Assembly (NCBI GenBank): GCA_015064195.1
Contig: SVSO01000133.1
Coordinates: 1 to 7,815 of the forward strand
From: Oscillospiraceae bacterium
Lineage (GTDB): Bacteria > Bacillota_A > Clostridia > Oscillospirales > CAG-272
DNA: 7,815 nucleotides
Direction: 5' to 3'
In this document: positions 1-7,815 of the stretch, piece after piece
Numbering within the stretch: the first letter of the stretch is position 1
Layout: every line of letters starts with the position of its first letter
Position numbers and translations under genes: made by a program
The notes under the pieces: model-generated
The model's database searches: none
Seen by the model: only the letters and a program-made list of their open reading frames with translations
Told to the model about the DNA's origin: nothing

Positions 1-179
1 GCGTGGAGGCACTGCAGCTGGCGAAGGATGCGGGCTGCGGATTGCTGGTGCCCATGCACTTTGATCTGTACGACTGCAATGCTGTCCATCCGGCGCAGTT
101 TGCGGACGCAGCTCTCCGCACAAATCCGATGCAGGCGTGGCATATGTTCCGTCCCGGTGAGCGATATATTCTGATGTAA
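1..179 (+). CDS. MBL-fold metal-dependent hydrolase, UlaG-like (3' end only)
   Basis: This is the last 58 codons of a gene that begins outside the window; the reading frame starts at base 3 and ends with TAA at 177-179. The segment contains LLVPMHFDLYD followed by an F-x-DA-like stretch and ends PGERYILM. The P-M-H-F-D block, with a metal-binding type histidine, followed by a 'PGE' strand close to the C-terminus, is the pattern at the end of metallo-beta-lactamase-fold hydrolases of the L-ascorbate-6-phosphate lactonase (UlaG) group. The metal-binding HxHxDH motif would lie upstream and is not visible, so substrate and exact family are inferred. The gene ends just before a strong terminator and is probably last in its operon. 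Confidence 0.7.
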   Translation, partial: VEALQLAKDAGCGLLVPMHFDLYDCNAVHPAQFADAALRTNPMQAWHMFRPGERYILM

Positions 180-186
180 GCACAGC

Positions 187-222
187 TTCGGCGGCAGGAT
201 TGCCTGCCGCCGAAATTTTTTT
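187..222 (+). terminator. Rho-independent terminator after the MBL-fold gene
   Basis: There is a perfect 12-bp stem, TTCGGCGGCAGG (187-198) with CCTGCCGCCGAA (203-214), and an ATTG loop, followed by A and seven T (216-222). It starts 7 bases after the stop codon of the upstream gene and separates that operon from the tRNA promoter. Confidence 0.92.
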
Positions 223-242
223 AAAAAAGTTTGTAAAACCCC

Positions 243-271
243 TTGACAAACTCCGCGGAATCGTGTATAAT
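243..271 (+). promoter_or_regulatory. Consensus sigma-A promoter of the tRNA-Arg/tRNA-His operon
   Basis: TTGACA at 243-248 and TATAAT at 266-271 are separated by exactly 17 bases, so both hexamers and the spacing match the housekeeping consensus. The -10 ends 20 bases before the first tRNA, which fits a short 5' leader removed by RNase P. Such a strong promoter is expected for stable RNA genes. Confidence 0.93.
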
Positions 272-291
272 ATTGTATGTTGATTGAGCGT

Positions 292-368
<77 letters not shown>

Positions 369-381
369 ATTCTTCCCATAT

Positions 382-459
382 GGTGGATGTAGCTCAGTTG
401 GTTAGAGCGCCAGGTTGTGGCCCTGGAGGTCGAGGGTTCGACCCCCTTCATTCACCCCA
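382..459 (+). tRNA. tRNA-His, anticodon GTG
   Basis: The acceptor strand GTGGATG (383-389) pairs with CATTCAC (449-455), including one G-T wobble (386/452). G382 can pair with C456, giving the extra G(-1):C73 pair that marks histidine tRNA for HisRS. CCA is encoded at 457-459. The anticodon stem CCAGG/CCTGG encloses the loop TTGTGGC, with GTG at 417-419, and the T loop is GGTTCGACC. It lies 13 bases downstream of tRNA-Arg with no promoter of its own visible, so both are probably processed from one transcript. Confidence 0.96.
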
Positions 460-462
460 GAG

Positions 463-491
463 AAAAAAGCACGTCATTGACGTGCTTTTTT
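463..491. terminator. Terminator usable on both strands between convergent units
   Basis: The stem GCACGTC (469-475) and GACGTGC (479-485) with loop ATT is flanked by six A (463-468) on the left and six T (486-491) on the right. Read on the plus strand it ends the tRNA transcript 4 bases after the CCA. Read on the minus strand it gives the same hairpin-plus-T pattern 2 bases after the stop of the FeoB-associated gene. One element therefore appears to serve two converging transcripts. Confidence 0.88.
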
Positions 492-492
492 A

Positions 493-663
493 TTATTTTG
501 ACTCGTCCTGCCCGCAGCCGCATCCGCCAGCCCGCTTCTTCGCACAAGCCTTTGCATGGGGACAGCCGATGCAGGCATTGCCGCGTTTTTTTTCGCGGAC
601 GAGGAAAAAGATGATTGCCGCGGCGATGCCGAGCAGCAGAATGATAATGAGAATATCGATCAT
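493..663 (-). CDS. FeoB-associated Cys-rich membrane protein
   Basis: The 56-residue product has one N-terminal membrane helix (about residues 3-22, MIDILIIILLLGIAAAIIFF), a basic VREKKR boundary, then a short cysteine-rich tail: CIGCPHAKAC (C31, C34, C40) and CGCG (C48, C50). This layout and length match the small FeoB-associated Cys-rich membrane proteins of Firmicutes, usually found beside ferrous-iron transporter genes. The basic side after the helix suggests a cytoplasmic tail, where the cysteines could bind Fe2+ or another metal; that role is inferred. The ATG at 663 was preferred to one 30 bases upstream because GAGGTG sits 6 bases before it. No feoA or feoB is in the window: the gene stands alone with its own regulated promoter, and it converges on the tRNA operon across a shared terminator. 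Confidence 0.85.
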   Translation of the reverse strand: MIDILIIILLLGIAAAIIFFLVREKKRGNACIGCPHAKACAKKRAGGCGCGQDESK

Positions 664-696
664 AAGAATCACCTCATGAGTATTGGTATCCATTTA

Positions 697-714
697 AGTT
701 AGCAACTGCTAACT
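697..714. promoter_or_regulatory. Perfect palindrome, probable metal-regulator operator
   Basis: AGTTAGCA (697-704) and TGCTAACT (707-714) are exact reverse complements separated by AC. On the minus strand the palindrome begins about 7 bases after the -10 hexamer of the FeoB-associated gene, so it covers the expected transcription start, a position typical of repressor binding. The TTAGCnnnGCTAA-like core resembles operators of DtxR/IdeR/MntR-family iron or manganese repressors, which fits the gene's likely iron role. The regulator's identity is inferred; the palindrome is seen directly. Confidence 0.7.
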
Positions 715-720
715 GATATA

Positions 721-749
721 AGTATATCACTTTTGCCGGGATTTGTCAA
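721..749 (-). promoter_or_regulatory. Sigma-A promoter of the FeoB-associated gene
   Basis: On the minus strand, TTGACA (complement of 744-749) and TATACT (complement of 721-726) are separated by exactly 17 bases. The transcript would start around 712-716, inside or beside the palindrome, leaving a leader of about 50 bases before the ATG at 663. A near-consensus promoter with an operator on its start site suggests strong expression when derepressed. Confidence 0.85.
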
Positions 750-886
750 GCCGTCAGAGAAGAAATTCATGGAAAAATTCGGAAATAGTCACGAAAAATT
801 TACAAATCCGGCATCGGTTTTACAGTATCGATTTGCACTTTTTTAGCGCGGAACATCCAAAATAGTTCATTATTAGTTAACATAAA

Positions 887-900
887 ATATATATATATAT
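887..900. repeat. (AT)7 dinucleotide tract in the -35 region
   Basis: Seven uninterrupted AT units lie directly upstream of the -10 element of the plus-strand operon. The tract occupies the place where a -35 hexamer would be (about 892-897), and no TTGACA-like hexamer is present. Such tracts can change length by slipped-strand mispairing, but length variation is not shown here. Confidence 0.8.
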
Positions 901-911
901 TACAGATATTG

Positions 912-920
912 TGGTATAAT
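912..920 (+). promoter_or_regulatory. Extended -10 promoter of the DUF2156/sensor-MFS operon
   Basis: TGGTATAAT (912-920) is a TGn extended -10 with a perfect TATAAT at 915-920, which can work without a -35 box. The predicted start lies around 927, giving a short leader before the ATG at 952. A second TATAAT at 935-940 is too close to the ribosome binding site to be the main promoter. No other convincing promoter was seen upstream of the following genes, so this one may drive the whole run. Confidence 0.65.
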
Positions 921-951
921 GTAAGAAGATTAGTTATAATGGAGAAAAATC

Positions 952-1890
952 ATGCAAACCAACCTGTTCACAGAAGAAAACCAGCCGGAACGATTGCGTA
1001 AATTGGAACAGCTGGGGTTTATAAAAATCTCCGATTTCCCAGTGATGAAGTATCTTCCCTATCAGGAGCACATCCGTCAATCGGATCTGGCATACTCTCT
1101 TCTTTATGCATGGGAGTTCGCGTTTGGCTATCGGATCCGTGTGATCAGCGAAAATCCGGTCATTACCGGCTTTAATTCGGAGGGCGGATTGTTTTTCTCG
1201 GTGATCCCCTGTCAGCCGGAGAGCTTTATGGATACCGTTGATGAGGCGGTTTCATTGCTGAAGGGCATCGAGCCGGGATTGATGCTCAAATATATACATG
1301 AGCCGGAAGCAAGGGCATTGGAAGCCCGTGGCTTTGCGGTGTCATATTCGCTTGATTACAGCGATTATATTTATAAAGCGGATGAGTTTGTCTCCATCGC
1401 AGGCAAGAAAAACAATTCAAAGCGGCATGAATACAATCGCATGGCGCAGAATGTCCCTGCGCCCCGTTACTGTGATCTTGAACCGGAGCAGTTCGAGGAT
1501 GTGCGGCGCGTTTTCAGTGATTGGTGCAGTGAGCATTCCTGCTCGGAGTGTATCTGGGGCTGCGAGAAAAATGCCTGCCTGCGGCTGCTGGAGCACGCTG
1601 CCCGTTATCCGGAACGATTTATTGCAGGGGCTGTCTATCTCGAAGGCGTACCGCGCTCCTTCGGTATTGCGGAGCGGATCAATCAGGACTGCGTGTGCTA
1701 TCATGTGCAGAAAAATTCCATTGCCGCTGGCGGTCTGACCTATTATCTTCACCACCATATGGCCTGCCGTCATCTGGATGTGCCGTACATCAACTGGGGC
1801 GAGGATATGGGCATTATGGGCCTCCGCTTCAACAAACAAAAATATCATCCTTGTGCCATGGAGCACAAATATGAAATCAGATTTCAGTGA
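952..1890 (+). CDS. DUF2156 (MprF C-terminal-like, GNAT-fold) protein
   Basis: The 312-residue product matches stand-alone DUF2156 / LPG_synthase_C proteins in size and landmarks: a central SDYIYKADEFVSIAGKKNNS-K-RHEYNRM block (about 137-164) and a C-terminal INWGEDMGIMGLRFNKQKYHP block (280-300). These correspond to conserved parts of the double-GNAT domain that, in MprF, transfers lysine from Lys-tRNA to phosphatidylglycerol. No membrane segment is visible, so this is a soluble enzyme, and its acyl or aminoacyl substrate is unknown. Five cysteines fall within 18 residues (C192, C197, C200, C204, C209), a possible metal or redox site. The ATG at 952 has GGAG 7 bases upstream. The next gene starts 26 bases downstream, so the two are probably co-transcribed. 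The family assignment is good; the function is not known. Confidence 0.82.
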   Translation: MQTNLFTEENQPERLRKLEQLGFIKISDFPVMKYLPYQEHIRQSDLAYSLLYAWEFAFGYRIRVISENPVITGFNSEGGLFFSVIPCQPESFMDTVDEAVSLLKGIEPGLMLKYIHEPEARALEARGFAVSYSLDYSDYIYKADEFVSIAGKKNNSKRHEYNRMAQNVPAPRYCDLEPEQFEDVRRVFSDWCSEHSCSECIWGCEKNACLRLLEHAARYPERFIAGAVYLEGVPRSFGIAERINQDCVCYHVQKNSIAAGGLTYYLHHHMACRHLDVPYINWGEDMGIMGLRFNKQKYHPCAMEHKYEIRFQ

Positions 1891-1916
1891 TCAGAAAGGG
1901 AAAAGAGGAGATCGTT

Positions 1917-4900
1917 ATGAAAACGATGTTGACAGCTATGAAAAAAAGCGCTCCTGTCTGGGGAGCAATACTGCTGCTGGTGCTCATTGCGGTGCTGTAT
2001 TTCAATTTCGGCGCACTTGGAACCGGCATTTTCTCTCCTTCGGTGGAGCTTACAGATCCGCTGAACTATTACGAAAAGAATGGCATCAGCTGCATCATCA
2101 ACAACTCGGGTCTGGAAATCATGGTGCTGGAGGATGGTGAATATCAGTATTCCATCGACGGCGGCTGCATTGATGATGGATTCTATTTCGCCCGGGATGT
2201 CAAGCTCGACGCAGAGGGGAATATTTATGTACTCGATAAACAGCTGAACGAAAACGGAAAGGATGTGGATGCAGAACGGATTATCCGATACGATGCGGAC
2301 GGCAATTTTTCCGCGATCCTGTATTCCTGCGCTCATCCTGACGGCAGCAGTGTGCTTCAGCTCTACAATCTCACTGTCACAGAGGAGTCCGTACACTTCG
2401 TCTGCACCACGCCGGAGGACTATTTCACGGTACATACGCTCTTTTTTGAAAACGAGGAGCTGGTCATCACCCAGCCCTACGAGTATGAGGATATTTATGA
2501 GATCGCGTGGGATTTCGCCTTCGATGATGCAGAGAATGTCTATATCTCCTCCAAAACCGGCGTGATCGAAAAGATCGATGCCGAATCGAAAAAGAAGACG
2601 GTTCTCTACGATAACGATTCCACGGATGAGGGCTATTTCAGTATCCCCACAAACATTGAATGGGCAGCCGACGGCACCATTTATTTCAATGATATCGGCC
2701 ACCGGAAGATCCAGAAGCTGCATATGGACGGAACGGTTGAGACCGTGGTGGAGATCGCCGAGCCGTTTGATGAGGCACCGGAAGCATTCAACGAGAATCC
2801 TATCTATTCCGGTTTGTTTGTCGGAGAAGATCTGAGCGTCGCCACAATTTATGTGCAGAATTATTTCATCGAAACGCAGGACGGCGAGGGCGAGCAGATC
2901 AACGAATACAAGCTCTATATGAAGACTGCGGACGGCAGCTGTCTGCACAATGGCAGCGTGTTTGATAAGACCGCATCCCTGTTTGCATCCGGCCTTCTCT
3001 TCTTTGCGGTTGCACTCATCGTGGCGGCGGCATTCGTATTCATCGCTGTGCGCGTTGTGATGATGATCCGCAAGTCCGGCATCTCCGGCACGGTTAAGAC
3101 GCAGATCATTATCGTTTTTACCGCGATCTGCGTAGCCTGTATTTCCATTTACATCATTGTCAGCGAGACGAACAAGGTCTACTACAATGAGATCATGAAT
3201 AATCTGGAAAATATTGCTTTCCTGATGGCGCGTGACATCGAGGAAGAGGATCTGGAAAACATCAATACTCCTGCGGATTTCATGAACGAATCCTATCAGA
3301 ACATCTCCGATTCTGTATTGGAGGTGCTCAATGCCGATCTGAACAATGCACGCGGCATTTACTGCGTCATCTACAAGGCGCAGAACGGCATCGTTTCCGC
3401 AATTTATGCCGATGATGCCATGTACGGCTCGGGATATCCCATGCCCGGCGGCTTTGAAGGTTCGGCAGAACAGTATATTTACGAGACCGGCGAGACGATG
3501 ACCGCCGCCTCCCATTCCAGCGCAGAGGGAAGCTTTATGCTGGTGCTGACGCCGATTTTCAACGAGGAGGATCAGGTCATCGGTCTGATGGAGGTAGGAA
3601 CCGATCTCTACAGTGCCAACGAAAAATCTCAGAAGCAGGTCATTGATACCATTCTGCTGGTCGTTACCGTGGTCATGGTGGGCGTGCTGCTGGTGAGCGA
3701 GCTTATCGTCATCTGGTCGAATATGAAGAAGCGGAGACTGGCAAAGGACAGATCCATGCCGCTTGATTCCGCCCTTGTCCGGCCGATCATTTTCCTGTTT
3801 TTCTTCGTCAGCAATATGCCGACGGCGTTCCTGCCTGTGTACAGCCGTTCCCTTTGGAGCGAGAGCTTCCCGATCCCCATGGAGGTTGCGATCGCGCTCC
3901 CTGTTTCCGCTGAGCTGTTCATTGCCGCCATCACTTCGCTGGTGCTCGGATTCGCAGTGTCAAAGCTGGGTGTGAAGCTCATGAGCATCGCCGGAGCAGT
4001 GCTGTTTGCTGCCGGCAACCTCATCTGCGCACTGTCTCCCAATCTGACCATGCTGATCGCGGCCTCCGCCATCACCGGTATCGGCGACGGCCTCATCATT
4101 CTCGCGGTCAACTCCTATATCGCCGGCTATGAGAACGATGAACAGAAGAACAACGGCTTCGTCCATTACAATGCCGCACTTCTGTCCGGCGTCAACTGCG
4201 GCACGGTCATCGGCTCCTTCATCGCAGAGCGGTTCGGCTACTCCATGACCTATTTCGCAGGCATGGTGATCGCGCTTCTTCTCATCCTGTTCTGCGTGAT
4301 CTGCATCCGCAATCACAAGCATACAGCATCGGAGGCGGCGCAGGCATCGAAGCCCAATGTGTTCCAGTTCATGTTCAAGCCGAACATTCTGAAGTATTTC
4401 CTGCTCATTTCCGCGCCGTATCTCATCTGCGCATCCTTCCTCAACTATTTCTTCCCCATCTTCGGCGAGGAAAGCGGACTCACACCGTCGCAGATCTCCA
4501 TGGCATTCCTGCTCATGGGCGTGATCTCCATCTACTTTGGCCCGGGACTGACGAAAAAACTGTCGGAAATCATGTCGCCCAAGAAGTCCATGCTGCTGGC
4601 GACCGCACTTTACGCGCTGGCACTGCTGGTGTTTATCATCCGTCCGGAGATTTCCACCTGCTATCTGGCTGTCGTGCTGTTCGCATTTGCTGACAGCTTC
4701 GGCTTCACGTCCCAGTCGGTCTACTATGCGACGCTTCCGGAAACCGTGGCCATCGGCGAAGGCCCGTCCATGGGCATCAACAGCGGTGTCGAGAGCGTAT
4801 CCTCCACCGTTGGCCCGCTGATCTTCGGCTTTGCACTGATGGCGGGTAATGTGGCGGGCATCACCATGATCGCAGCCTGCTTCATCGGTCTTGCGTTCCT

Positions 4901-4949
4901 GTTTGTTCTCACATCCTTCCGGATCAAAAAGAGCGGAGAGACAAAATGA
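1917..4949 (+). CDS. Chimeric sensor-MFS protein: beta-propeller-like domain, Cache-like sensor, MFS transporter
   Basis: The 1010-residue membrane protein has an N-terminal helix (about 15-31), then an extracytoplasmic region (about 60-345) with NHL/propeller-like repeats such as DVKLDAEGNIYVLD and NIEWAADGTIYFND. Two helices follow (about 352-382 and 395-416). Next is an extracytoplasmic sensor-like domain (about 420-572) whose end, LTPIFNEEDQVIGLMEVGTD, resembles Cache/PAS-like sensors of kinases and chemoreceptors. A further helix (574-600) leads to a C-terminal Major Facilitator domain (about 620-1002) of the usual length. The loop 2-3 motif A is degenerate: GFAVSKLGVK keeps G, K and G but has Ser where Asp/Asn is usual. 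Presumably the outer domains sense a ligand and gate transport; that is inference, and the substrate is unknown. The ATG at 1917 has AAGAGGAG 6 bases upstream; an in-frame ATG at 1887 lacks such a site. Its stop overlaps the next start (ATGA). Confidence 0.8.
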   Translation: MKTMLTAMKKSAPVWGAILLLVLIAVLYFNFGALGTGIFSPSVELTDPLNYYEKNGISCIINNSGLEIMVLEDGEYQYSIDGGCIDDGFYFARDVKLDAEGNIYVLDKQLNENGKDVDAERIIRYDADGNFSAILYSCAHPDGSSVLQLYNLTVTEESVHFVCTTPEDYFTVHTLFFENEELVITQPYEYEDIYEIAWDFAFDDAENVYISSKTGVIEKIDAESKKKTVLYDNDSTDEGYFSIPTNIEWAADGTIYFNDIGHRKIQKLHMDGTVETVVEIAEPFDEAPEAFNENPIYSGLFVGEDLSVATIYVQNYFIETQDGEGEQINEYKLYMKTADGSCLHNGSVFDKTASLFASGLLFFAVALIVAAAFVFIAVRVVMMIRKSGISGTVKTQIIIVFTAICVACISIYIIVSETNKVYYNEIMNNLENIAFLMARDIEEEDLENINTPADFMNESYQNISDSVLEVLNADLNNARGIYCVIYKAQNGIVSAIYADDAMYGSGYPMPGGFEGSAEQYIYETGETMTAASHSSAEGSFMLVLTPIFNEEDQVIGLMEVGTDLYSANEKSQKQVIDTILLVVTVVMVGVLLVSELIVIWSNMKKRRLAKDRSMPLDSALVRPIIFLFFFVSNMPTAFLPVYSRSLWSESFPIPMEVAIALPVSAELFIAAITSLVLGFAVSKLGVKLMSIAGAVLFAAGNLICALSPNLTMLIAASAITGIGDGLIILAVNSYIAGYENDEQKNNGFVHYNAALLSGVNCGTVIGSFIAERFGYSMTYFAGMVIALLLILFCVICIRNHKHTASEAAQASKPNVFQFMFKPNILKYFLLISAPYLICASFLNYFFPIFGEESGLTPSQISMAFLLMGVISIYFGPGLTKKLSEIMSPKKSMLLATALYALALLVFIIRPEISTCYLAVVLFAFADSFGFTSQSVYYATLPETVAIGEGPSMGINSGVESVSSTVGPLIFGFALMAGNVAGITMIAACFIGLAFLFVLTSFRIKKSGETK

Positions 4950-5806
4950 TTCGATTTGCAGACGAAAGCATGATTCACGAGCTGAAAGCACTCTGGCTGG
5001 AGTGCTTTCCCGGGGATGACGACTACTGTGCATTCTTCTTTGACCGTTATTTCACCGGCGATACCTGCGTTGTCCATACAAACGATGGGGGCGAGGTGGA
5101 GGCTGCCGCATATATCTTCCGCGGCGAGGTGACGGTGGCGGGTAAGCGCGAATCCGTGTATTTTCTGTACGCAGGCGCGACCTTCAAAAAATACCGCAAA
5201 ATGGGCAAATGCAGTGCCATCTGCCGCTGGATCGCCGATTACTGCCGGGAAAACGGCGTCGGAATCATTTCCCTGAGCACATCGCCAAGCTCCCTTTCGC
5301 TCTGCGAAAAGAGCGGCATGGTGCCCATGGTGAGCATGAGAGCCACAGTCACCGCAGTTTCGGAATTGGCAGGGGCACTGTCCTGTGAAGACTGCGGCTA
5401 TGAGGAGTTTGCGGCCATGCGCAGACGGTTTCTTGCAGGCGAGTTTGAAATCGACTGGACGGCGGACACGCTTCGCTATATGTACGATGAAATGCACGTT
5501 GGCGGCGGCATCGTTAAAATAAGCATCGGCGGCCGTGACTGTTATGCCGCGTATACCTGCCTTGAGGATGGCCTGCTCATCCGCGAGACCGACTGCCCGG
5601 CAGATAACATGGATGCCCTTGTCCGGGCGGTGGCGGCGCACATCGGCTATACGGGCAAGGTGACACTTTACACAAAACCGGACATCATTCCCCGGCTTTC
5701 CGTGACCGCATCGCAGGAGGAGTTCTGCTATGCCCATCTCTGGTTCGTCGATGAAAGCCTCAATGCTCCGGATGCCGGCTGGTATATCAATCTGACGGCG
5801 GAATGA
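4946..5806 (+). CDS. GNAT family N-acetyltransferase
   Basis: The 286-residue product opens with a GNAT-type start (MIRFADESMIHELKALWLEC) and a central acetyl-CoA region: a beta-4-like strand VYFLYAGATF (71-80), then KKYRKMGKCSAICRWI, then a strand and LCEKSGMVPM (119-128), where GNATs usually have 'ye..GF'. The pyrophosphate-binding loop R84-K-M-G87-K-C89 fits R/Q-x-x-G-x-G/A except for Cys at the last position. The length exceeds a single GNAT domain, so the C-terminal 140 residues form an extra domain, as in Eis-like or two-domain GNATs. The acceptor is unknown. The ATG overlaps the TGA of the MFS gene by 4 bases (ATGA), and CGGAGAG lies 5 bases upstream, so the two genes are translationally coupled. 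A role modifying something sensed or moved by the MFS protein is plausible but unproven. Confidence 0.8.
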   Translation: MIRFADESMIHELKALWLECFPGDDDYCAFFFDRYFTGDTCVVHTNDGGEVEAAAYIFRGEVTVAGKRESVYFLYAGATFKKYRKMGKCSAICRWIADYCRENGVGIISLSTSPSSLSLCEKSGMVPMVSMRATVTAVSELAGALSCEDCGYEEFAAMRRRFLAGEFEIDWTADTLRYMYDEMHVGGGIVKISIGGRDCYAAYTCLEDGLLIRETDCPADNMDALVRAVAAHIGYTGKVTLYTKPDIIPRLSVTASQEEFCYAHLWFVDESLNAPDAGWYINLTAE

Positions 5807-5840
5807 TCCCTTTCCGTCATGTAAATTTCAGGAGGAAACT

Positions 5841-6209
5841 ATGTTTGAAACAGAATTTGCCTTTACACTTCCCAAGGGTTATGTGGACTTCAACGGCGTG
5901 CTTCACCGCGAAGGCGTGATGCGCCTTGCCAATGCTGCTGACGAGATCGTTCCCCTCAAGGACCCGAGAGTTCAGCAGAATCCCGGCTATCTTTCCATTA
6001 TCATTCTGGCACGTGTCATCACCAAGCTGGGAACACTTCCCGCTGTCGATACCAAGGTCATCGAGGGAATGTATACCATGGATCTTGCCTATCTGCAGGA
6101 TATTTACGCGAAGATCAACACCATGGAAATGCCGGTATACAAATGCGTCTGCCCGCACTGCGGCGAGAGCGTCGAGGTTCCCGTAAATTTTCTGGAAGCC
6201 GGAATATAA
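5841..6209 (+). CDS. Phage-tail/eCIS assembly-chaperone-like protein with CPxC motif
   Basis: The 122-residue product has features I associate with small proteins coded next to gp19-type tube proteins in extracellular contractile injection systems (eCIS): FTLPKGYVDFNGVLHREGVM, then MRLANAADEIVPLKDPRVQQ, NPGYLSIIILARVITKLGTL and IEGMYTMDLAYLQDIYAKIN. These resemble the Mu gp41/TAC-type tail assembly chaperone group, so a role in tail-tube or tape-measure assembly in the cytoplasm is inferred. A short C-terminal cysteine motif (C102-x-C104-PH-C107-G) resembles one half of a zinc ribbon. AGGAGG lies 5 bases before the ATG. The gene starts 34 bases after the GNAT stop, with no terminator seen between. 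Near its 3' end are a slippery heptamer and hairpin (6185-6222) that could shift ribosomes into the following -1-frame ORF. Confidence 0.72.
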   Translation: MFETEFAFTLPKGYVDFNGVLHREGVMRLANAADEIVPLKDPRVQQNPGYLSIIILARVITKLGTLPAVDTKVIEGMYTMDLAYLQDIYAKINTMEMPVYKCVCPHCGESVEVPVNFLEAGI

Positions 6210-6222
6210 TACTGTATCCGGC
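6185..6222 (+). promoter_or_regulatory. Candidate programmed -1 ribosomal frameshift site
   Basis: In the frame of the chaperone-like gene the codons GTA AAT TTT place A AAT TTT at 6185-6191, an exact X_XXY_YYZ heptamer in the correct phase. After a 6-nt spacer, GCCGGA (6198-6203) pairs perfectly with TCCGGC (6217-6222), enclosing a 13-nt loop that contains the zero-frame stop TAA (6207-6209). A Shine-Dalgarno-like GAGG (6174-6177) ends 7 bases before the heptamer, comparable to the upstream stimulator in dnaX. A -1 slip would join 117 residues of the first product to 64 residues of the next frame. Frameshifted tail chaperones are well known in long-tailed phages (lambda G/GT, P2 E/E'). All elements are seen; use of the site is inferred. 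Confidence 0.55.
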
Positions 6223-6385
6223 GGATAAAATTTACGAAGAAATCGCGTTTATCGCGTACTATACTCACTGGCAGCACAGCGAGATCGCCTCGTTCAGCCA
6301 TGCCGAGCGCAAGCGCTGGTGCAGTGAGATTTCCAAAATCAACAGCAAGCTTAACGATACGCCGGAGAATATCTTCAGCATATGA
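6191..6385 (+). CDS. DUF6760-like small eCIS protein, probably made by -1 frameshift
   Basis: The conserved part (57 codons from 6212) reads LYPADKIYEEIAFIAYYTHW, then QHSEIASFSHAERKRWCSEI, then SKINSKLND. This looks like DUF6760, a short helical family coded between the chaperone-like and tube genes in eCIS loci, with the typical Y-x-E-E-IAFIAY, HW, and R-x-RW pattern. Its molecular role is not known to me. The start is the problem: in this frame there is no ATG, GTG or TTG near the conserved N-terminus. The only canonical start, the ATG at 6143, has no well-placed ribosome binding site and would add 23 residues of overlapping, unconserved-looking sequence. The feature is drawn from the predicted frameshift point. 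Re-initiation at ATA (6206 or 6209) or CTG (6212) after the TAA is an alternative. The stop is TGA at 6383-6385. Confidence 0.65.
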   Translation, partial: SGSRNIILYPADKIYEEIAFIAYYTHWQHSEIASFSHAERKRWCSEISKINSKLNDTPENIFSI

Positions 6386-6409
6386 CCGGCAATCTGAACG
6401 GAGGTATTT

Positions 6410-6847
6410 ATGTCGTCCGCAGACAGACTGATTCCCAATTATTCTTTCACCGTGAAGTTTGATATATTTTCCTTCGGCTTTGCCAAGGTGAGCAATATTT
6501 CCGGCTCTGCGGAGATCGATACCATTATCAACGGCGGACACAACGATGCGCCCGTGATTCTGCGCAAGCCCAAGCGAACACCGGATATGCTGGTCTTTGA
6601 GCGGGGGACACACTGCTCAATCAGCGATACGGCCTTCTCCTATTTCAAGGAAGGCAGAAAGATCGATGCCATTACGATCAATGTCAAATGCAACGACAAA
6701 ACCGTCCGGATGTTTTTCGTCACCAATGCGCTCATTGTCAGACGCGAATTCGCACCGCTGGATGCCATGAGCAGCGGAGTTTTCCTCGAAGCGCTGCAGG
6801 TGGCTCACACCGGCATCACCGAGGTCGCGCTTCCGTTCTCGCTTTAA
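6410..6847 (+). CDS. Phage tail tube protein, T4 gp19-like (eCIS inner tube)
   Basis: The 145-residue product has the pattern of the T4-gp19 tail tube family: an N-terminal strand YSFTVKFDIFSFGFAKVSNI, then SGSAEIDTIINGGHNDAPVI, then a P-D-M-L-V-F-E-R-G strand (58-66) matching the family's 'L.L.RG' turn. The rest is beta-rich, including TNALIVRREFAPLDAMSSG (105-123). Such proteins stack as hexamers to form the inner tube of contractile tails and injection systems. The length is close to eCIS tube proteins and a little shorter than T4 gp19. GGAGG (6400-6404) lies 5 bases before the ATG, a strong site that fits high expression of a major structural protein. It starts 24 bases after the DUF6760-like stop. 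The sheath, baseplate and ATPase genes expected nearby would lie to the right of the window, so eCIS versus prophage remnant remains open. Confidence 0.82.
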   Translation: MSSADRLIPNYSFTVKFDIFSFGFAKVSNISGSAEIDTIINGGHNDAPVILRKPKRTPDMLVFERGTHCSISDTAFSYFKEGRKIDAITINVKCNDKTVRMFFVTNALIVRREFAPLDAMSSGVFLEALQVAHTGITEVALPFSL

Positions 6848-6850
6848 CGA

Positions 6851-7815
6851 ATGAAAACGCTTCATAAATCCTCCATCGCCGTCACAGCTTCCCTGAAGAC
6901 TGTGGTCGGCAAGACCGGATTCTCGTCTGCAAGCCGTTCGCTCGCGTTTGCAAATGCGATCCTCGGTAAGTACAGCAATATGCTTCCGGCCGAGCTTGCG
7001 GATGCCATGATGGTGTTCCTGAAGGCACACACAGACGAGCTGGAGACGGACAGAAAGCGCAGGGAAAAGATCCAGCTGGCACTCAGGCTGGTGTTTGTCA
7101 AATATCTGACCGCACACGCTGCCCGGCCGATTACCATCAACAATACCTTCGCGGATTATTTAGCCGTTTCCGAAGGGATTACGAACGAGCAGCTTCGCAT
7201 TGAAAATCCGCAGTATCATACAGCAGTGCTGGCCATTGGACAGCGGCTGGAAAATGCCTCCGACCCGGAGAAAGCCGCCAGTGCGATCATGGAATATCTC
7301 CGGGAGGAGATGTCCGTAACGGAACGCACAGTATCCCTGCGGATGCTGGATGCGGCACTCATTGCGAGAGCGGCAGACGATGCGGGACTGCGGCCGCCGG
7401 AGCTTCTGAACGAGCGGACGGAATCGCGCACAGAAACAACACAGATTCGCAGCTTTTCGGAATTTGTCTGGCGGAAGAGTATTCCGACAAAGACAGATTT
7501 GACCGTGCACGATGTGCAGACGGCGGAGATCATCCACCGCGAGACAGCGCGGATCGAGACAGCGGAAGAAACCGCATCGCATACAGCTTCGCAAGAAGTG
7601 CAGACCGCAGAGATCATCCACCGCGAGACAACACGGATCGAGACAGCGGAAGAAACCGCATCGCATACGGCTTCGCAAGAAGTGCAGACAGCGGAGATCA
7701 TCCACCGTGAGACAGCACGGATCGAGACAGCGGAAGAAACCGCATCGCACACGGCTTCGCACGATGTGCAGACAGCGGAGATTATCCATCGCGAGACAGC
7801 GCGGATCGAGACGGC
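6851..7815 (+). CDS. Unrecognised protein with 28-residue tandem repeats (3' end missing)
   Basis: An open frame runs from ATG 6851 to the window edge without a stop, giving 321 complete codons. I do not recognise the family. The N-terminal 200 or so residues look soluble and mostly helical, for example LADAMMVFLKAHTDELETD and EKAASAIMEYLREEMSVTER, with no signal peptide or membrane segment. A Thr/Glu/Arg-rich linker follows, then SFSEFVWRKSIPTKTD. From residue 222 a 28-residue unit (VQTAEIIHRETARIETAEET plus ASHTASQE) repeats. 28 is four heptads, and the even spacing of Ile and Ala allows a helical or coiled-coil rod, which is inference. No clear ribosome binding site precedes the ATG, which lies 3 bases after the tube gene's stop, so translation is probably coupled. 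Position beside the tube gene suggests a structural or assembly part, or a cargo, of the injection system. Confidence 0.7.
   Translation, partial: MKTLHKSSIAVTASLKTVVGKTGFSSASRSLAFANAILGKYSNMLPAELADAMMVFLKAHTDELETDRKRREKIQLALRLVFVKYLTAHAARPITINNTFADYLAVSEGITNEQLRIENPQYHTAVLAIGQRLENASDPEKAASAIMEYLREEMSVTERTVSLRMLDAALIARAADDAGLRPPELLNERTESRTETTQIRSFSEFVWRKSIPTKTDLTVHDVQTAEIIHRETARIETAEETASHTASQEVQTAEIIHRETTRIETAEETASHTASQEVQTAEIIHRETARIETAEETASHTASHDVQTAEIIHRETARIET
7514..7815 (+). repeat. Tandem 84-bp repeats, in frame (3.6 copies visible)
   Basis: Units begin at 7514, 7598, 7682 and 7766, exactly 84 bases apart; the fourth is cut by the window end after 50 bases. Copies are nearly identical at the DNA level, with only scattered changes (for example GCG/ACA/GCA at one codon and CAA GAA versus CAC GAT at the unit end). 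This points to recent duplication or ongoing homogenisation. Each unit codes for 28 residues of the unrecognised protein and keeps its frame. Confidence 0.95.

Follow-up and report, generated by a model that had tools for sequence, protein, structure and literature searches.

How does a locus express a conserved DUF6760 domain that lies in the -1 frame of the preceding tail assembly chaperone (TAC) gene and has no start codon close to its beginning? This question is raised by a stretch of 7,815 nucleotides from an Oscillospiraceae bacterium (GenBank assembly GCA_015064195.1, contig SVSO01000133.1, positions 1 to 7,815 of the forward strand), hereafter termed the window. Frameshifted tail assembly chaperones are well known in phages, and what sets the present case apart is its setting in an extracellular contractile injection system (eCIS). 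From the comparison of sequences we consider it about 90% probable that eCIS produce a TAC as well as a TAC-DUF6760 fusion by -1 frameshifting, that outside the clade of the window the slippage most likely takes place at G GGG GAR, and that the slip site has been swapped while the output was kept. In our judgement, frameshifting is close to certain for the clade of the window, and it is quite likely for the loci with a G-rich site.

The junction observed in the window (Table 1) contains the heptamer A AAT TTT in phase with the TAC codons, and it joins the 122-aa TAC to the DUF6760 domain in the -1 frame. An earlier reading of the sequence alone, without database searches, had singled out the in-phase heptamer, the 6-nt spacer and the GC-rich 6-bp hairpin with the zero-frame stop in its loop, and all of its coordinates proved exact. 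Slippage is predicted to yield a fusion of 117 + 64 = 181 aa. The stretch 3' of the heptamer folds with an MFE of -12.1 kcal/mol (z -2.5), a value equalled by 3 of 200 shuffles. The conserved downstream frame had also been assigned correctly: in the window, where it matches PF20546, and likewise in 80 relatives, DUF6760 occupies the -1 frame of the TAC.

Table 1. Coordinates of the features at the candidate frameshift junction and next to it, given as positions of the window
Feature	Positions	Strand	Basis or remark
Shine-Dalgarno AGGAGG of the TAC gene	5830..5835	+	sequence check
TAC, zero-frame product, 122 aa, with C-terminal CPHCG zinc-ribbon-like half motif and VNF-LEAGI*	5841..6209	+	ATG at 5841
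GAGG, proposed internal Shine-Dalgarno stimulator	6174..6177	+	present; conservation no better than chance
Slippery heptamer A AAT TTT in TAC phase (GTA AAT TTT CTG)	6185..6191	+	kept in 81/81 loci
Spacer CTGGAA, 6 nt	6192..6197	+	sequence check
Hairpin, arms GCCGGA (6198-6203) and TCCGGC (6217-6222)	6198..6222	+	folding; stem in 76/81 loci
Zero-frame stop TAA of the 122-aa form, inside the hairpin loop	6207..6209	+	sequence check
-1 extension, 64 codons SGSR...FSI, TGA at 6383-6385; DUF6760	6191..6385	+	PF20546
Second tail tube protein, gp19-like, own Shine-Dalgarno GGAGG (6400-6404)	6410..6847	+	PF06841 E 3e-5, under cut-off
Start of large ORF with repeats, tape-measure position	6851..7813	+	1348 aa in L001

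The proposed chaperone identity of the first protein is borne out by profile and by fold: PHROG 508 matches the window protein (3.6e-6) and 24 of 24 aligned members, and the predicted structure has the TAC fold, matching YqbN and the HK97 TAC. Nine viral structures match this fold at E <= 0.001, headed by T4-like baseplate hub assembly proteins; Mu FS-gp41 stands at rank 10 (TM 0.56, E 1.5e-3). PF10109 was found in one of eight TACs scanned (Pseudanabaena, 5.6e-5, just under the cut-off), and the window protein gave no match to it at E up to 1. The DUF6760 domain, scanned in the -1 frame from 6185 to 6382, passes the PF20546 cut-off (E 2e-17), and its model comprises three predicted helices (pLDDT 78.9). 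Its PHROG matches are weak (phrog_1756 “tail protein” in 8 of 26), structure searches returned no solved or confident viral fold match, and neither profile nor structure searches detected kinship to gpT. Searches of viral contigs, made with the TAC and with a DUF6760 alignment (one pattern), found no relative, and tblastn against a phage collection found no relative. Among word-sharing proteins of about 100-316 aa there was no natural in-frame TAC-DUF6760 fusion, the one candidate not being significant. The protein search yielded at least 7997 TAC relatives versus 22 called DUF6760 relatives, a gap that arises partly from the short query and from gene callers omitting short ORFs.

The genomic context is that of an injection system. 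A sheath clustered with gp19-type tubes and other CIS parts occurs in the related loci L024, from Bacilliculturomica massiliensis, and L074, from Sporofaciens musculi, and in a Nostoc record, while the window itself shows only the TAC, DUF6760, the gp19-like tube and the large ORF; in the nearest relative, L001, a sheath lies on the same contig at a distance of about 34 kb. The equivalents of the gp19-like tube protein in L024 and L074 exceed the PF06841 cut-off. Upstream of the chaperone gene the window carries a GNAT acetyltransferase gene (4946-5806, + strand), to which an ORF of about equal length corresponds in L001 (4029-4844, + strand); in L024 and L074 this position is taken by a tube gene. 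Since this upstream gene is not a tube gene in the window and L001, and since the L001 sheath is located about 34 kb away, the eCIS gene order appears to be rearranged. The large ORF is, by its position, a tape-measure candidate; Pfam gave no match for its equivalents in L001 and L074. Within it, an 84-base unit is present in 3.6 tandem copies with 91% match (window 7507-7812), which encode a 28-residue repeat, and variation in the length of this repeat could act as a dial of tape-measure length.

How strongly the junction is conserved was determined on genome contigs, where a scan confirmed 222 relatives; the best 80 of these 222 were used and, together with the window, form a set of 81 loci with chaperone genes that are all distinct at the DNA level. 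Alignment of the junction revealed [GA]TA AAT TTT in phase, followed by DUF6760 in the -1 frame, in the window and in 80 of the 80 relatives kept, a score of 81/81 that describes the closest relatives because only the best 80 were kept, and that does not equal 81 independent events because the loci are related. At the junction the codons are GTA (60) or ATA (21), AAT (81) and TTT (81), i.e., zero entropy across three consecutive codons, whereas the share among synonymous codons in the rest of these genes is 20% for GTA (Val), 23% for ATA (Ile), 59% for AAT (Asn) and 81% for TTT (Phe). The naive probability of this pattern (log10 about -80) is too strong, given that the loci are kin. Codons immediately 5' of the heptamer vary nearly as gene-wide usage predicts. 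Apart from the three junction codons, entropy is zero in just two columns, an Ala codon within the 5' stem arm and a column with 99% Met. For a -1 protein that begins no earlier than the heptamer, protein constraint would give no reason for an A in the third position of the Val/Ile codon.

Conservation extends to the hairpin. A GC stem of at least 5 bp, located 4-7 nt past the heptamer (5-6 nt in 76 cases), was found in 76 of the 81 loci scored and is absent from L019, L020, L021, L075 and L078; resampling the 3'-arm codons from gene usage gave a mean of 32.9 and a maximum of 43 stems in 200 trials. In the 3' arm the Pro codon is CCG in 77 of 80 cases versus a frequency of.43 elsewhere, and this codon is located beyond the zero-frame stop. 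Covariation was counted on a subset of 43 sequences out of the 81 and is weak, both sides being changed in 2 cells; it is too sparse to count as evidence, since most pairs are nearly invariant, and codon usage provides the stronger argument for the stem. An upstream internal Shine-Dalgarno is a common but optional element of -1 frameshifting in bacteria. The GAGG suggested for this role is indeed present in the window, yet its proposed function as a stimulator is unsupported: similar motifs 5' of the heptamer occur in 28 of the 81 loci versus 24.1 +/- 3.2 expected by codon resampling, i.e., without enrichment.

Neither the junction nor the recoding signal is a peculiarity of this locus and heptamer, a point on which the comparison departs from the sequence-only reading. 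Further DUF6760 loci were collected from the genomes of the phylum to which the L074 genome belongs and from the orders (once a family) of some members; matches were obtained in 13/398, 8/63, 8/73, 9/113, 1/3 and 2/25 genomes per set, some genomes being counted in more than one set. Plasmids contributed 19 of 35 records, from cyanobacteria, actinomycetes, proteobacteria, a spirochaete, Paenibacillus and Haloferax. L081-L088 repeat members of the first 80 loci and were left out, and L093 repeats L031, so that 53 rows represent 52 distinct loci; L140, with a DUF6760 match under the Pfam cut-off, was retained. DUF6760 lies in the -1 frame of the chaperone in 51 of these 52 loci, and the same -1 junction is found in 132 of 133 distinct loci overall, from many assemblies.

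Within the last 18 chaperone codons, the region scanned, 51 of the 52 loci bear an in-phase slip motif: a T-rich one (AAATTTT, GGATTTT, GGGTTTT or TTTTTTN) in 20, a GGGGGA-type one in 28, both in 2 and GGGAAAC in 1 (Haloferax), counts that are partly post hoc, because the G-class motifs and GGATTTT were added after viewing the loci. The same motif set occurs in 19 of 380 in-phase upstream windows of the same open frames and in 7 of 106 off-phase windows; these control counts include L093, the removal of which takes one row off the T class. Among the T-rich sites, the type of motif persists despite changes of the encoded residues (CTA AAT TTT, TTG GAT TTT, CTG GGT TTT, GAT TTT TTA). In the G class the sequence is nnG GGG in 28 of 28 loci and the first residue varies between L, W, S, T, A, P and Q; as G precedes GGG throughout despite this variation, it is the nucleotides rather than the protein that are conserved. 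The G-class sites lie 0-2 codons 5' of the TAC stop (28 loci, with L100 and L109 measured to set ends), and the slip site of the window lies 5 codons before the stop. For L109 this end was set by hand and for L100 by rule, because their zero frames continue beyond the junction. L113 was scored as lacking a motif, since an upstream break in its TAC frame puts the ACG GGG GAA TAG that it contains in the other frame. The extra break in this Kovacikia chaperone gene (L113 1840-2001), 5' of GGGGGAA, may stem from an error in sequencing, from decay of the gene or from a further site of recoding. On a Haloferax larsenii plasmid (L108 2453-2983), an archaeal chaperone-like gene has the in-phase GGGAAAC near its stop, along with an ATGA overlap with DUF6760.

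The -1 frame alone is not decisive, because a 4-nt ATGA overlap likewise places a second ORF in -1, and TAC and DUF6760 could be two separate genes, the latter translated by termination-reinitiation from a start codon at the end of the TAC gene; in loci that have a GGGGGA run, this run would then serve as Shine-Dalgarno. Database records indeed annotate a DUF6760 gene of its own, starting with ATA in Nostoc, ATT in Pseudanabaena, GTG or CTG within an overlap in Streptomyces (CTG in L118) and ATG in Haloferax. Moreover, ATG, GTG or TTG is found at the junction in 14 of the 52 further loci, namely in the streptomycetes L110, L112, L114, L115, L117 and L119, in Rhizobium (L103), Haloferax (L108) and L134, and in the T-class loci L120-L122, L125 and L132, with ATGA or GTGA overlaps in Rhizobium, the streptomycetes, L134 and Haloferax and TGATG overlaps in L120 and L121. 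We nevertheless regard separate genes as improbable. From the heptamer to the DUF6760 domain, 57 of the 81 clade loci, the window among them, have no ATG, GTG or TTG; the other 24 do have one there (16 GTG/TTG only, 8 with ATG), at positions that differ between loci. An ATG at 6143, 42 nt 5' of the heptamer, opens an 80-aa ORF in the -1 frame of the window; it is not preceded by a Shine-Dalgarno, and both genes flanking the -1 ORF have one (Table 1). Among the 81 loci, an upstream ATG in this frame occurs at -42 in the window alone, at -36 in 9 and at any position in 10. Counting all start codons, 36 of the 81 have a -1-frame start 5' of the heptamer, and a Shine-Dalgarno-like motif precedes 1 of these 36. 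Separate genes also leave the fixed GTA/ATA, AAT and TTT unexplained, 37 of the 52 other loci combine a slip site with the lack of a start, and the streptomycetes L116 and L118 lack the overlapping GTG (TCC TGA) but have GGGGGAA.

Both mechanisms might also coexist, with frameshifting in the T-class clade and coupled re-initiation wherever a start overlaps, an account that is compatible with the best explanation for the window itself and that we hold to be doubtful as a description of the whole set. Coupled re-initiation is possible wherever the junction offers a start, i.e., in 14 of the 52 further loci. Thirteen of these 14, however, keep an in-phase T-rich or GGGGGA site and the fourteenth has GGGAAAC. 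Of the pattern that had been named as speaking against frameshifting, a well-placed ATG with a ribosome binding site and no conserved heptamer, they thus show a part, a start codon that overlaps the TAC stop. A chance motif, an assembly error or a pseudogene, with the second ORF being part of one gene that has decayed or was sequenced wrongly, is a negligible possibility: nothing in the window favours it, although L113 has its additional frame break, and it is contradicted by the conservation of the -1 junction and by the DUF6760 frame, which is open and alike across loci and for which no in-frame relative was found among the proteins of about 100-316 aa compared. Slippage of the transcribing polymerase at the T or G run would be conceivable in view of runs of 4-7 T or 5-6 G at the site. 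Yet these runs are short, AAATTTT is not a homopolymer, and the heptamer always has one and the same phase with respect to the codons, something that slippage during transcription does not need; we consider such an origin very improbable.

The distribution of the slip sites points to an exchange. A tree of the chaperones, built from 63 rows (12 from the set of 81 and 51 from the set of 53, L113 and L140 being omitted), unites the T-class rows around the window in one supported clade (99/96) that is nested among G-class rows, and L139 and L141, which have both sites, fall inside it. The T-class rows L096, L128, L131 and L132 are placed outside, which may reflect a second gain or a long-branch effect. 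Many forks of this tree are unresolved, and L104, L111 and L106 form long branches. The simplest reading is that the slip site was probably exchanged in one lineage and the fusion kept.

For the window, we infer the following course of translation. Ribosomes would start at 5841 and proceed up to A AAT TTT, and the majority would continue to the TAA at 6207 and release the 122-aa chaperone. The GC hairpin 6 nt further 3' would slow a fraction of them, and these would slip with both tRNAs by -1, the Asn tRNA from AAT to AAA and the Phe tRNA from TTT to TTT, and read the -1 frame to 6385, thus giving rise to the 181-aa chaperone-DUF6760 fusion. If lambda gpG/gpGT is taken as the model, the tape measure protein may be coated by the short form, and DUF6760 may enable the long form to recruit tube subunits. 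With two forms in separate roles, the efficiency of slippage would therefore set the ratio of short to long chaperone, as we propose. Outside the clade of the window the same fusion most likely originates from a different site, G GGG GAR.

A broader version of this reading seems to us somewhat better than an even bet: CIS of at least five bacterial phyla, and possibly of haloarchaea, would make a TAC of two lengths by -1 frameshifting, DUF6760 would be the general counterpart of the T domain and exist mainly within the fusion, and G GGG GAR would have been replaced by A AAT TTT in the lineage of the window, with L139 and L141 having both and the output remaining the same. If so, a class of bacterial injection devices depends on a recoding signal at which annotation either goes wrong, by calling two genes, or sees nothing, eCIS gain a lambda-like pair of short and long chaperones, and tube assembly and length control become testable. 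The exchange of slip sites would furthermore be a natural experiment in the evolution of recoding, in which the signal was altered at constant output.

The eCIS case resembles gpG/gpGT of the phages lambda and TP901-1 in the combination of a short chaperone with a -1-frameshifted long form, in the location of the site near the 3' end of the first gene and in the adjoining tube and tape-measure genes. It differs in that eCIS are bacterial injection devices without a capsid, in the second domain, DUF6760, which has no detected kinship to gpT, and, in the lineage of the window, in the T-rich heptamer and the zinc-ribbon-like half motif 5' of the slip site. According to passages of the TP901-1 report, insertion of a restriction site in the GGGAAAG slip site resulted in capsids without tails (PMC4493119). 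Mu gp41/FS-gp41, of the Phage_TAC_7 family (E, 41, 14), matches the window TAC in fold, but sequence kinship is marginal. T4-like phages share the contractile tail with eCIS, and their hub assembly proteins are among the fold matches of the TAC. Some of them are described, in the parts of the literature consulted, as encoding the short form in one gene and the fused long form in another, without frameshift (Vladimirov et al. 2022, cited in PMC10885494 and PMC13222765), and therefore frameshifting in contractile devices is not given beforehand; in contrast to such phages, the eCIS loci keep the -1 junction.

The heptamer of the G-class loci, GGGGGAA, is the “fivetwo” motif of the PRFect study, excerpts of which report about a thousand SEA-PHAGES cases and TACs as 2397 of 2476 frameshift genes (PMC10885494), and it has been proposed as the slip site in corynephage phi16, as stated in a section of PMC5506516. 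The clade of the window uses A AAT TTT instead. In the accessible portions of the open-licence PMC literature we found no description of a TAC frameshift in eCIS, and DUF6760 was not named in the open-licence PMC literature searched. The one “frameshift” in the main text of a paper on a Serratia eCIS refers to a mutation in a toxin component (PMC8528098).

Further upstream, the window contains a 1020-aa ORF (1887-4949, + strand) with a weak single-cache-like match at its N-terminus and an MFS transporter at its C-terminus; such a joining of a sensor-like part to a transporter is unusual. Genes for tRNA-Arg (292-368, + strand) and tRNA-His (383-459, + strand) lie at the beginning of the window.
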